The position numbers and the translations under genes were made by a program. 64,000 nt of DNA from Bacteroidota bacterium (lineage in GTDB: Bacteria > Bacteroidota > Bacteroidia > Bacteroidales > Prolixibacteraceae): positions 1 to 64,000 of the forward strand of contig JAJRSD010000107.1 in NCBI GenBank assembly GCA_024278975.1. Reading direction: 5' to 3'. Positions 21,169-24,465 of the stretch are shown piece by piece. The notes beneath the pieces were generated by a model that was not told the origin of the DNA, searched no databases, and was given only the letters and a program-made list of their open reading frames with translations. Positions within the stretch are counted from its first letter, which is position 1. Each line of letters opens with the position of its first letter.

Positions 21169-22176
21169 TTACTGCTTTCTTAAATTATTTCTTCTTGTTT
21201 GGAAATGTAACAGATACGCCCTTTTTGTTTGATTATCGAGAAAAGAGTTATGAATTAGTTTTTCAACTATGGGTTGTTTTATCAAAAAGGGTGCGAGTAA
21301 TTTGTCTCTTCTTTTTTTCGTTATTCCCAGCCTTCTGGCAAATTCATAAAAATCTGCCAAACTTATCATACCTCTGTTTTTCATTTGTTCCGATTCAAAA
21401 TCATCTTTAAAAAGTCCTTTGTCCAATGCAAAATCGGTATCACGAACATGAATGCGGGTATTTATTAAATCGTATGCCGGACTCAATCTGTAATCCCCAT
21501 TTATCGTTTCCATTATCGAGAAATTTTTTAAATGTGCATCTCCGTTTAAAAACAGGAAATTAAATACAATAAGCGAAAAAAACCTTTCCAGCTCAATAAT
21601 GTATGTTGGTACAAATTTCCTTATCAATTCAGATAACTCTTCGTAACTGGAATTATACTTAAAATCGTATCCGGCATTTTCAACTGTAGCGCCTGCGAGA
21701 GAAGCAAAATCTTCAACTCCCCATTTCGAACCGTCCTCTTTTATATCAAATCTTTTTGTAATATAAGCCGGCTCACCATTTTTAAAAAAAATTAAAGCAT
21801 TTTGGGCAGTTTGTATCCCATAAACCTGACTGGCAATCTGCATGGTTAAATGTTCATTTGCCGGAACCTGATTGACTTTTGTAAGGTCTCTTGGAATTGG
21901 TTTTAATATATAATTACCTTGTTCTCCCTCTTTGGTCAGGCGTAATTTGTTCTTGTCAAGAATTAACGACAACTTCTCCTGAACACCGGAAACAGAAATC
22001 CGTTTACGGTTTTCTATAAACTTAGCATCGTCGTCGTCATTCGAATGCGGCGGGTAGTAATTAAGGAAATGACTAACTTTTTTGCCAAAGAATACTTTGT
22101 TCAGGCAGGTCGTACTGTACGTATCAAAGCCTTTTGAAAGTGTCCCTGGACAATTGTATATTTTTGGTAATTCCAT
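21169..22176 (-). CDS. hipT: HipT-like Ser/Thr kinase toxin (split HipA)
   Basis: A 335-aa HipA-family kinase lacking the usual N-subdomain 1, which is encoded separately upstream as in HipBST systems. The Gly-rich loop reads 'ISVSGVQEKLSL' with Ser61 and Ser63 as autophosphorylation candidates. Lys92 ('YILKPIP') fits ATP binding. The catalytic loop 'NGDAHLKN' gives Asp213, and 'SPAYDL' gives the metal Asp236. Known HipA and HipT kinases phosphorylate aminoacyl-tRNA synthetases (GltX, TrpS). The start overlaps the hipS stop as TAATG. The target here is unknown. Confidence 0.85.
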   Translation of the reverse strand: MELPKIYNCPGTLSKGFDTYSTTCLNKVFFGKKVSHFLNYYPPHSNDDDDAKFIENRKRISVSGVQEKLSLILDKNKLRLTKEGEQGNYILKPIPRDLTKVNQVPANEHLTMQIASQVYGIQTAQNALIFFKNGEPAYITKRFDIKEDGSKWGVEDFASLAGATVENAGYDFKYNSSYEELSELIRKFVPTYIIELERFFSLIVFNFLFLNGDAHLKNFSIMETINGDYRLSPAYDLINTRIHVRDTDFALDKGLFKDDFESEQMKNRGMISLADFYEFARRLGITKKRRDKLLAPFLIKQPIVEKLIHNSFLDNQTKRAYLLHFQTRRNNLRKQ

Positions 22177-22508
22177 TATTTAACGGTTTCAATGGGTGAT
22201 ATTGTAATTGCACCAATCGTATCTTTCGACGCAGTGGCTAATAATAATCCAAAATAATCTTCTTCATCTATTTTTAACTGGCGGCATTGCAACTCCTTGT
22301 TTACACCTTCTGAAAGCAAATTGAAAAAAAACGGAAATAAATGATTGGATTGAAATGCTTTCTGAGATTTTGGCAAAGTGAGACTGATTGCAGGTAATTT
22401 GTCATTTGAAAACCAAACATCATCATAAATAAATTCATAATTCCCGGGACTGTTCTGAATAAGAGTCCCTGCAATTTTACCGTTTCGAAATACAAGAGCC
22501 TTGCGCAT
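22176..22508 (-). CDS. hipS: HipS-like HipA N-terminal domain protein
   Basis: A 110-aa protein equal to the HipA N-subdomain 1 alone: 'KALVFRNGKIAGTLIQNSPGNYEFIYD' followed by 'PAISLTLPKSQKAF' and 'FFFNLLSEG'. In characterised HipBST the corresponding small protein HipS is the antitoxin that blocks the kinase, whereas HipB mainly represses and augments. It sits between hipB (6 bp away) and hipT (1-bp overlap), giving a tight three-gene operon. The order B-S-T matches the described systems. Antitoxin activity is inferred. Confidence 0.83.
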   Translation of the reverse strand: MRKALVFRNGKIAGTLIQNSPGNYEFIYDDVWFSNDKLPAISLTLPKSQKAFQSNHLFPFFFNLLSEGVNKELQCRQLKIDEEDYFGLLLATASKDTIGAITISPIETVK

Positions 22509-22514
22509 ATTTTA

Positions 22515-22724
22515 TTATTTTGGTTGTTTTACTTTCAAATCAAGCTCCATTCCCAACACTTCTGCAAGTTTTAACAAAGTACTTAAAGTTGGGTTTCCTT
22601 TTCCTGTCTCAATTAAATTAAGTGTACGCTTCCCAATACCTGCCAATTCAGAAAGATGTTCTTGTGTAATTCCTAAAATTTCACGCCGCTGCTTTAGCTT
22701 TTCAATTATTTTATCGTAGTGCAT
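22515..22724 (-). CDS. hipB: HipB-like Xre-family DNA-binding protein
   Basis: A 69-aa helix-turn-helix protein ('LGITQEHLSELAGIGKRTLNLIETGKGNPTLSTLLKLAEVLG') of the HipB/Xre type, first gene of the hip operon. The ORF track begins at a TTG at 22754, but a -7 box (TATATTTG, minus, 22751-22744) covers that position. I therefore take the ATG of 'MHYDKIIEKL' at 22724; an ATG at 22742 is also close to the box. It probably represses its own promoter through the inverted repeat at 22774-22801. The C terminus is short, without the long tail seen in some HipB proteins. Confidence 0.82.
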   Translation of the reverse strand: MHYDKIIEKLKQRREILGITQEHLSELAGIGKRTLNLIETGKGNPTLSTLLKLAEVLGMELDLKVKQPK

Positions 22725-22743
22725 TATATTGCTCTTTTTCATA

Positions 22744-22801
22744 CAAATATACAACTAATAAATAGAAGTGTACACAAAAGCGTATTAAATTGCGTTTTTG
22801 T
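22744..22801 (-). promoter_or_regulatory. hipBST promoter and operator candidate
   Basis: The minus strand has a -7 box TATATTTG at 22751-22744. Upstream lie the palindrome GTGTACAC (22768-22775) and an inverted repeat with 9-bp arms, ACAAAAGCG and CGTTTTTGT (22774-22782, 22793-22801), one mismatch and a 10-bp centre. The overlap with the promoter fits autorepression by HipB. Confidence 0.5.
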
Positions 22802-22861: not shown

Positions 22862-24096
22862 TTATCTTAAGTATAAATTACTATCGCCATAGCTTAAAAA
22901 CCTGAAGTTATTAGCAAGTGCAAAATCGTAAACTTTTCGCCAGTTATCGCCCAGAAATGCGCTAATTAAAAGCAGCAGTGTGCTTTGCGGTTGATGAAAA
23001 TTAGTAAACATTCCGCCAATAATTTGAAAAATGTAACCCGGTAAAATTATAATTTGAGTTGAAAATTGAATAGCAGTTTGGTTTGATTGATTCAGGTAAT
23101 CAACAATATTCTTAAGCGATTTTTTTGTACTGATTTCAGCTCTGTTTTCGTAAGGTTCCCATTGCAATACTTCAGGTTTGTTTGGGTTGAATGAGTTATT
23201 TTCGAGTTGCAAACCTAACCAGTATAAACTTTCCAACGAGCGTACCGAAGTTGTTCCAACTGCAATAATACTATCCGGATTTTCAATAAAACCTTCAATA
23301 ATACTTTTAGTAATAATTACCGTTTCGTGATGCATCGAATGTCCCGAAATAGTTTCCGATTTTACAGGTTGGAAAGTGCCTGCTCCAACATGAAGTGTAA
23401 TCTCTTTAGAGGAAATATTTTTGTGTGAAAGTTGATTAAAAACTTCATCGGTAAAATGTAGCCCGGCAGTTGGTGCAGCCACCGACCCGTCGATTTTTGC
23501 ATAAACAGTTTGGTAGGTCTCCTCGTCGGCTTCCTCTGTTGCGCGGTTTAAATAGGGCGGAATTGGCAATGTTCCGGTGTGTTCAATAATTTCGGCAAAC
23601 GAGATTTTTTTATTCCAGGTAAATTCTATTAAAAATGTATTTTCAACCTGCTCTTTTTTTTCAGCTTGAATTACAATTTTTTTCCATTAATTTCAACCTC
23701 TCGTTTTAAAATTCCCGCTTTCCATTTTTTCGAATTGCCCACCATGCACTTCCAAACCACGTGCTCCTTCTCCTGAAAAGCAATTTCATAATCGGCAGGT
23801 TCAACAGGCTCCAAACAAAATATTTCGATTTTTGCACCAGTCTCCTTTCTGAAAAACAGGCGTGCATGAATTACGCGCGTATTATTAAAAATTAGCTGAG
23901 CATTTTTAGGAATATATTCAACACAATTATTAAAATTATCTTGCTTAATAGTATCATTTTTCCAAACCAGTAATTTCGACTTGTCGCGCTCTGCAAGCGG
24001 ATATTTTGCAATTCTCGACTCAGGTAAATCGTAGGTAAAATCAGCTATTTTAATGTCCTTATATAAGTTCAAATTTGAAGTCTTTAATTTTTGCAA
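22862..24096 (-). pseudogene. queA: tRNA ribosyltransferase-isomerase (queuosine synthesis), frameshifted
   Basis: QueA transfers and isomerises ribose from AdoMet onto preQ1-tRNA to give epoxyqueuosine. The two ORF-track pieces (23671-24096 and 22862-23569) join into one about 400-aa QueA if one base is gained at a run of seven A's (minus strand GGAAAAAAATTG, plus 23677-23683). Then 'GKKIVIQAEKKEQVEN...TLPIPPYLNRATEE' reads through. N-terminal 'DFTYDLPESRIAKYPLAERDKSKLLV' and C-terminal 'MFTNFHQPQSTLLLLISA...FLSYGD' are intact. There is also no ATG: the family start position ('IKIADFTY') is ATT, and the TTG at 24096 lies within a likely -7 box. Causes could be decay, a sequencing indel or frameshifting on the A AAA AAA heptamer. 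Confidence 0.82.
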
Positions 24097-24117
24097 AAAT
24101 AGTTTAAAATATTTTTA

Positions 24118-24379
24118 GGGGACTTCTAATAATTCCTTTCTTTCAAGAAGCAAGTATAATGAATAATATGCAAGCCACAAATATTTATGAATAGCCGTAG
24201 CTATTTAAAAATATTTTGGCGAAGTCAGATTGTTTATTATACTTGTTCCCGTAGGGTTGTCATAGTTTTCCATATACTGCTTTAAATTTTATTACATTAT
24301 CCCGATAGTGTTTCAAAAATTTAAATTGTCTCTGAAAAACTATGACAATCTTGATGCGAAGGAATTAATAGAAGTCCCC
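24118..24379. mobile_element. MITE-like element: 21-bp terminal inverted repeats enclosing two nested hairpins
   Basis: The ends GGGGACTTCTAATAATTCC.. (24118-24138) and ..GGAATTAATAGAAGTCCCC (24359-24379) pair over 20 of 21 bases. Inside, arm one spans 24151-24245: CAAGTATAAT/ATTATACTTG, an inner GCC..AAATATTT pairing, and the tip AATAGC-CGTA-GCTATT. Arm two spans 24257-24348: a perfect 13-bp TTGTCATAGTTTT/AAAACTATGACAA stem, then TTTAAATTTT/AAAATTTAAA, then ACATTATC-CC-GATAGTGT. Nearly all of its bases are in stems and there is no ORF. It lies between the divergent queA and Smr genes. I see no clear target-site duplication. It could be a non-autonomous transposon or a large structured RNA/cruciform locus. 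Confidence 0.7.
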
Positions 24380-24457
24380 TTTAATCTCTTGTAAATTTTA
24401 AGTAATAAGTTTTGCCACAAAGTTGCACGAAGTTTCCCGAAGCCAAAAGTAAAATTG

Positions 24458-24465
24458 TACTTTTG
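24458..24465 (+). promoter_or_regulatory. -7 box for the Smr-domain gene
   Basis: TACTTTTG matches TAnnTTTG and lies 15 bp before the ATG at 24481. This supports that ATG over the ORF-track start at 24412. Confidence 0.45.

Follow-up and report, generated by a model that had tools for sequence, protein, structure and literature searches.

A very probable MITE with IS5-family ends and a two-hairpin palindromic core between queA and a divergent smr gene of a Bacteroidota bacterium

In the gap between queA and a divergent gene of the DUF2027/Smr type lies a short element that is made almost entirely of nested stems (Table 1). It raises the question whether it is a transposon derivative mobilised from elsewhere, or a structured RNA or cruciform that controls both neighbours, and why its stems should be so regular. 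Coordinates refer to the window, that is, the whole stretch of 64,000 nucleotides that was analysed. The best explanation is very probably that of a non-autonomous MITE with IS5-family ends, whose mobilisation would occur in trans and whose nested stems would be tied to its propagating lineage.

Limits, fold and neighbourhood of the element

The original prediction, of a 262-bp nest of stems closed by 21-bp terminal inverted repeats, proved exact in its coordinates; the repeats are complementary at 20 of 21 positions, and both long hairpins are present in the computed fold with the tips expected for them. The minimum free energy of positions 24118-24379 as RNA is -103.4 kcal/mol, against a mean of -44.0 for shuffled sequences (z = -13.4), and none of 200 shuffles folded as well. 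The layout is that of a terminal stem, hairpin A, a mini-hairpin and hairpin B. The junction that had been proposed as three-way is, once the mini-hairpin is counted, strictly a four-way one. An assembly palindrome, which had been considered as an artefact, can be dismissed because the structure recurs with its own target duplications in many independent genomes.

Table 1. Features of the element and its surroundings in the window
Feature	Position	Strand	Basis
Whole MITE, 262 bp, hairpin A first	24118..24379	+	98% copy and genus relatives
Left terminal inverted repeat, IS5-family type GGNNNN(C/T)TCTAATAATTC	24118..24138	+	end consensus, ~50 copies
Right terminal inverted repeat	24359..24379	-	complementarity to left end
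Target duplication TTTA, left copy	24114..24117	.	flank comparison
Target duplication TTTA, right copy	24380..24383	.	flank comparison
Hairpin A	~24151..24247	+	fold; self-complementary blastn match in 98% copy; covariation
Hairpin A tip AATAGCCGTAGCTATT	24190-24205	+	fold
Mini-hairpin CCCGTAGGG between the two arms	24248..24256	+	fold
Hairpin B	~24257..24348	+	fold; self-complementary blastn match; covariation
Hairpin B tip ACATTATCCCGATAGTGT	24294-24311	+	fold
queA, in two ORFs owing to a frameshift	22862..24096	-	Pfam PF02547 in both halves; alignment to relatives
Putative -7 box TACTTTTG of the DUF2027/Smr gene	24458..24465	+	read from sequence

As had been noted, the element has no ORF; none is needed to explain it, and the adjoining ORFs are queA and the smr gene. 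Peptide-like frames on its minus strand (MHYRDN..., NNLTSPKYF...), which looked coding by eye, are broken by one-base length differences between lineages, and a coding role was therefore set aside. The position between two divergent genes and the broken state of queA were likewise confirmed, PF02547 being matched on two frames. Comparison with three relatives places a net one-base loss near 23679-23683, in an A/T-rich run; either queA is truly a pseudogene here, or the assembly could be in error at this point. On the other side, the motif that we take to be a -7 box of the smr gene stands undisturbed, 78 bp past the element, and several element-free relatives show a similar stretch, TTGTACTTTTGC. 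Beside queA, translations read by eye show HipA-like ORFs and, after them, a small ORF of the helix-turn-helix type (21169-22754, minus strand), an arrangement resembling a HipAB-type toxin-antitoxin pair.

Copies, ends and target duplications

The proposal that the element might be a MITE was upheld by its dispersed copies, its IS5-type ends, its fixed 4-bp duplication and an element-free orthologous site, together with its small size and the absence of a transposase gene. In its own genome (G000, 4.65 Mb), blastn found two longer copies, one full and 98% identical, in opposite orientation (G000:C51:5939-6200), the other at 75%; the two ends alone make up at least four derivatives of 43-54 bp. 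Relatives within the genus were detected by blastn in 19 of 37 genomes, including that of the window (18 others), and in 21 (20 others) with a covariance model built on the core; one of these genomes, G020, holds dozens of element ends. A pattern scan for the two hairpin tips at fixed spacing, run on a collection with one genome per species, returned 68 stretches in Bacteroidales, Flavobacteriales, Cyclobacteriaceae and a few MAGs labelled Chlorobiota and Delongbacteria, with taxa being MAG labels and bins as given. A phylum-wide survey under strict prefilters gave a match in one of 395 other genomes, which is evidence of patchiness only. Plasmid and phage collections gave no match to the element, and the single pattern match on a viral contig (L275) was unsupported by the covariance model.

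The copies occupy many unrelated sites, intergenic for 35 of the 36 copies that have two flanking ORFs. Clean empty sites, which the original prediction had named as support for a MITE, were found in part: in 15 relatives the divergent queA/smr gap is free of the element, but divergence of the flanks prevents the junction from being fixed to the base.

All full copies bear the ends given in Table 1; the bases after GG vary between lineages and usually remain complementary between both ends of one copy. Among 60 flank pairs of IS5-type copies, 37 are identical at exactly 4 bp, against 16.7 in shuffled pairs, and other duplication lengths showed no excess over shuffles. When only non-palindromic pairs are counted, the figures are 12 of 34 against 5.1, equalled in 8 of 5000 shuffles; these duplications include TTTA (window), GTAA, CTAA, ATAA, TACA, TAAA and TATG. 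About 40% of the flank pairs are imperfect duplications.

A candidate parent comes from NORP27, a genome with many copies, which holds a 1243-bp IS5-family element that is bounded by ends of this type and by the duplication TTAA, with a transposase matched by NCBIfam NF033581 at 196 bits (cut-off 140). Its right end, TTATTAGAGGTTCCC, is identical over 15 bp to the right end of the NORP27 MITEs. The MITE resembles IS5-family elements of this kind (NF033581, transpos_IS5_4) in its ends, its 4-bp duplication and the NORP27 right end, and differs from them in lacking a transposase gene and in an interior that is unmatched in the parent candidates. The transposase gene of the NORP27 element, the best parent candidate, is frameshifted, and the search yielded no intact IS5-family transposase with these ends; in G020 and in the genome of the window itself (G000:C36), remnants of this transposase type adjoin ends of a similar kind. 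We infer that an IS5-family transposase acting in trans would recognise the ends and insert the element at NTWA-like sites, mostly TTAA, with a 4-bp duplication, and that the window copy would have landed in this manner between queA and the smr gene.

A two-hairpin core in a second chassis

In further genomes of the genus, weak blastn matches led to elements that share this layout and have a length of about 264 bp. Fourteen of these sisters were tested with a profile of the IS5-type core, and every one was recovered, with E values from 2e-7 to 3e-13, whereas the best of 700 shuffled sequences reached 0.13. The sisters bear the ends ACCTGAGTTCGA or ACGTGAATTCGGG and have longer target duplications, of 5 bp (22 of 48, against 7.1 shuffled). 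Such ends match those of an IS982-family transposon in G008 (NF033520, 259 bits, cut-off 130), which ends in ACGTGAGTTCGA...TCGAACTGACGT and has the duplication TAAAATA, and the sisters are IS982-type MITEs by ends and duplication. Both chassis occur together in several genomes, e.g., G020 and G028. Over the two of them, 93.3% of the cells of the core pair, against 81.6% in shuffled alignments and less than 50% with partners slid. On these comparisons, one non-coding cassette with two hairpins is present in two unrelated transposon chassis.

Model searches found no trace of the core sequence in the IS5 and IS982 parent candidates, and its origin by internal deletion of a parent IS was rejected on this ground. 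The core would be an older non-coding cassette. A broader reading, that it is an independent selfish or functional non-coding cassette, which spreads by DNA folding, uses several unrelated transposases and has switched one or more times between ends of the IS5 and of the IS982 family, is tentative and somewhat unlikely; it might extend to a third type in G022. In that genome, two elements (L024 and L036, around 1430-1640) have hairpin A without hairpin B, and their ends (TTTAACCTTGTATTGCC) are of quite another type; they match the model at an E of about 1e-5 and are possibly a third chassis.

Correia, ERIC and Nezha elements are, like the window element, short, non-coding, palindromic, dispersed MITE-like repeats, and are set apart from it, by description, in size, ends and hosts. 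No description of the present family was found in the openly licensed full-text literature, and an earlier one elsewhere is possible; the family thus appears to be undescribed, with an unusual conserved palindromic core that it has in common with IS982-type MITEs. The closest likeness to the sisters, drawn from its description, is MITECca01 of the Cardinium endosymbiont cOegib, an IS982-derived element of about 240 bp in many, mostly intergenic copies, which is of similar size and kind and also belongs to Bacteroidota (PMC9769881). It was reported to be lineage-specific and to have a short stretch in common with its parent IS; the parts of that report used here mention neither a conserved two-hairpin core nor a second chassis (PMC9769881).

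Palindrome as DNA, decay in place and rival readings

Pairing was analysed in 26 non-redundant elements of 65-95% identity, in which about 95% of the paired cells are Watson-Crick and 40-44 pairs occur with two or more Watson-Crick types. A fold that worked as RNA should accept G-U more readily than A-C on its own strand. In the IS5-type elements, departures from pairing comprise 24 G-T and 23 A-C (73 pairs, defined with G-U excluded), which points to a constraint on the palindrome as DNA; this equality is probably a signature of DNA and not of RNA. For the IS982-type sisters, the G-T to A-C ratio is 44:27 in a wider pair set and 20:23 in a stricter one, and in each chassis the given (A-first) strand has a slight folding advantage. 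RNA may have a minor role in the sister chassis.

The fate of resident copies was followed at one locus, in the sister chassis, where about 14 paired sites vary among four orthologous IS982-type copies, each from a different species, and none of the changes is compensated. Similarly, copies within single genomes show 35 one-sided against 5 compensated changes. These uncompensated changes indicate that the palindrome decays at resident sites and is renewed in moving lineages, and it would thus be a property of the moving lineage, not of the locus. On this pattern, a role of the stems at queA is disfavoured and a tie to propagation favoured; the tie would be either an advantage in transposition or template switching during replication.

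The hairpins can also be lost, as derivatives of 162 bp without hairpin B occur at at least five loci in G020, and others of about 50 bp lack both hairpins. Since the breakpoints of the 162-bp forms coincide and lie at short direct repeats, these forms may have moved in their shortened state or have arisen repeatedly in place. The remark that stems this regular exceed the needs of an ordinary MITE is fair as regards a core conserved across two unrelated chassis, yet hairpin-less derivatives exist. In one copy (L047, G020:C21:9661-9907), hairpin B is inverted within its own stem relative to sibling copies, and five others (L186, L189, L223, L235 and L242) carry extra palindromes, e.g., TGCCTGCCTTGCCGGTCAGGCAGGC, at nearly one place in hairpin A. 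The hairpin B tip seemed invariant, a feature partly imposed by the search pattern; it varies among 33 model-found sister copies.

Against this background, it is very improbable that the element is a structured non-coding RNA or that it acts as a riboregulator of queA, smr or both. This reading would account for the great stability of the fold, the strong covariation, the place between divergent genes and the slightly better folding of the A-first strand in both chassis. The numerous unrelated insertion sites, the element-free queA/smr gap of the relatives, the equal G-T and A-C departures in the window's chassis and the uncompensated pair losses of orthologous sister copies all argue against it, and Rfam returned only chance matches, none near any gathering score. 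Control of both neighbours by an RNA or cruciform, which the original prediction had entertained, is not supported, nor is the locus conserved. No more probable is a REP/BIME-like palindrome pair moved by a hairpin-recognising RAYT or IS200-type single-strand (HUH) transposase. HUH transposition leaves no target duplication, and the 4-bp duplications and long terminal inverted repeats of the window's family are those of IS5-family DDE elements; the sister chassis with IS982 ends and 5-bp duplications also speaks against this rival. Its appeal lies in the two long hairpins with comparatively conserved tips, the mostly intergenic copies and the loss or inversion of a hairpin in some of them. In the accounts used here, REP/BIME with RAYT are similarly hairpins in intergenic repeats, from which the window element differs by its long terminal repeats and target duplications (PMC3733652, PMC6006769).

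A further rival concerns the mechanism of the stems only and leaves the MITE identity untouched. It holds that the palindrome is kept solely by replication template switching (quasipalindrome correction), without advantage to the element, which is possible though rather doubtful. Strand-symmetric covariation, the inverted hairpin B of L047 and deletions between short direct repeats fit this idea; the mostly uncompensated changes, in orthologous copies and within genomes, imply that correction is not fast at resident sites and would act mainly in the transposing lineage. As for the preferred reading, a MITE whose stems are tied to propagation, its lineages would keep both arms palindromic while landed copies decay. 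The palindrome may fold as DNA, as a hairpin or as a cruciform during replication, and such folding, with template switching from arm to arm, might keep the arms matched and also yield the inverted and hairpin-less derivatives.

It is usual to view the inside of a MITE as filler, the remainder of a parent transposon after deletion. In the present case, sequence and fold of the interior are kept while the ends differ (IS5-type and IS982-type, in many Bacteroidota lineages), which offers a natural experiment to ask whether transposon movement is aided by a DNA palindrome and how MITEs switch transposase partners. In addition, RNA and DNA palindromes are separable in alignments by the balance of G-T and A-C and by the in-situ decay of orthologous copies.

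Two further elements lie in genomes other than that of the window. One (L160:1-4088, G024:C64) belongs to another palindromic family of about 120 bp, GC-richer, with the ends GGGAACCTCTAAAAACTC, a different interior and at least three copies. The other (L246:2838-2957, G072), of 120 bp, has the ends GGGTGGTTCTAAAAA...TTTTTAGAACCATCC and a TTTA duplication, and adjoins a DDE transposase gene.
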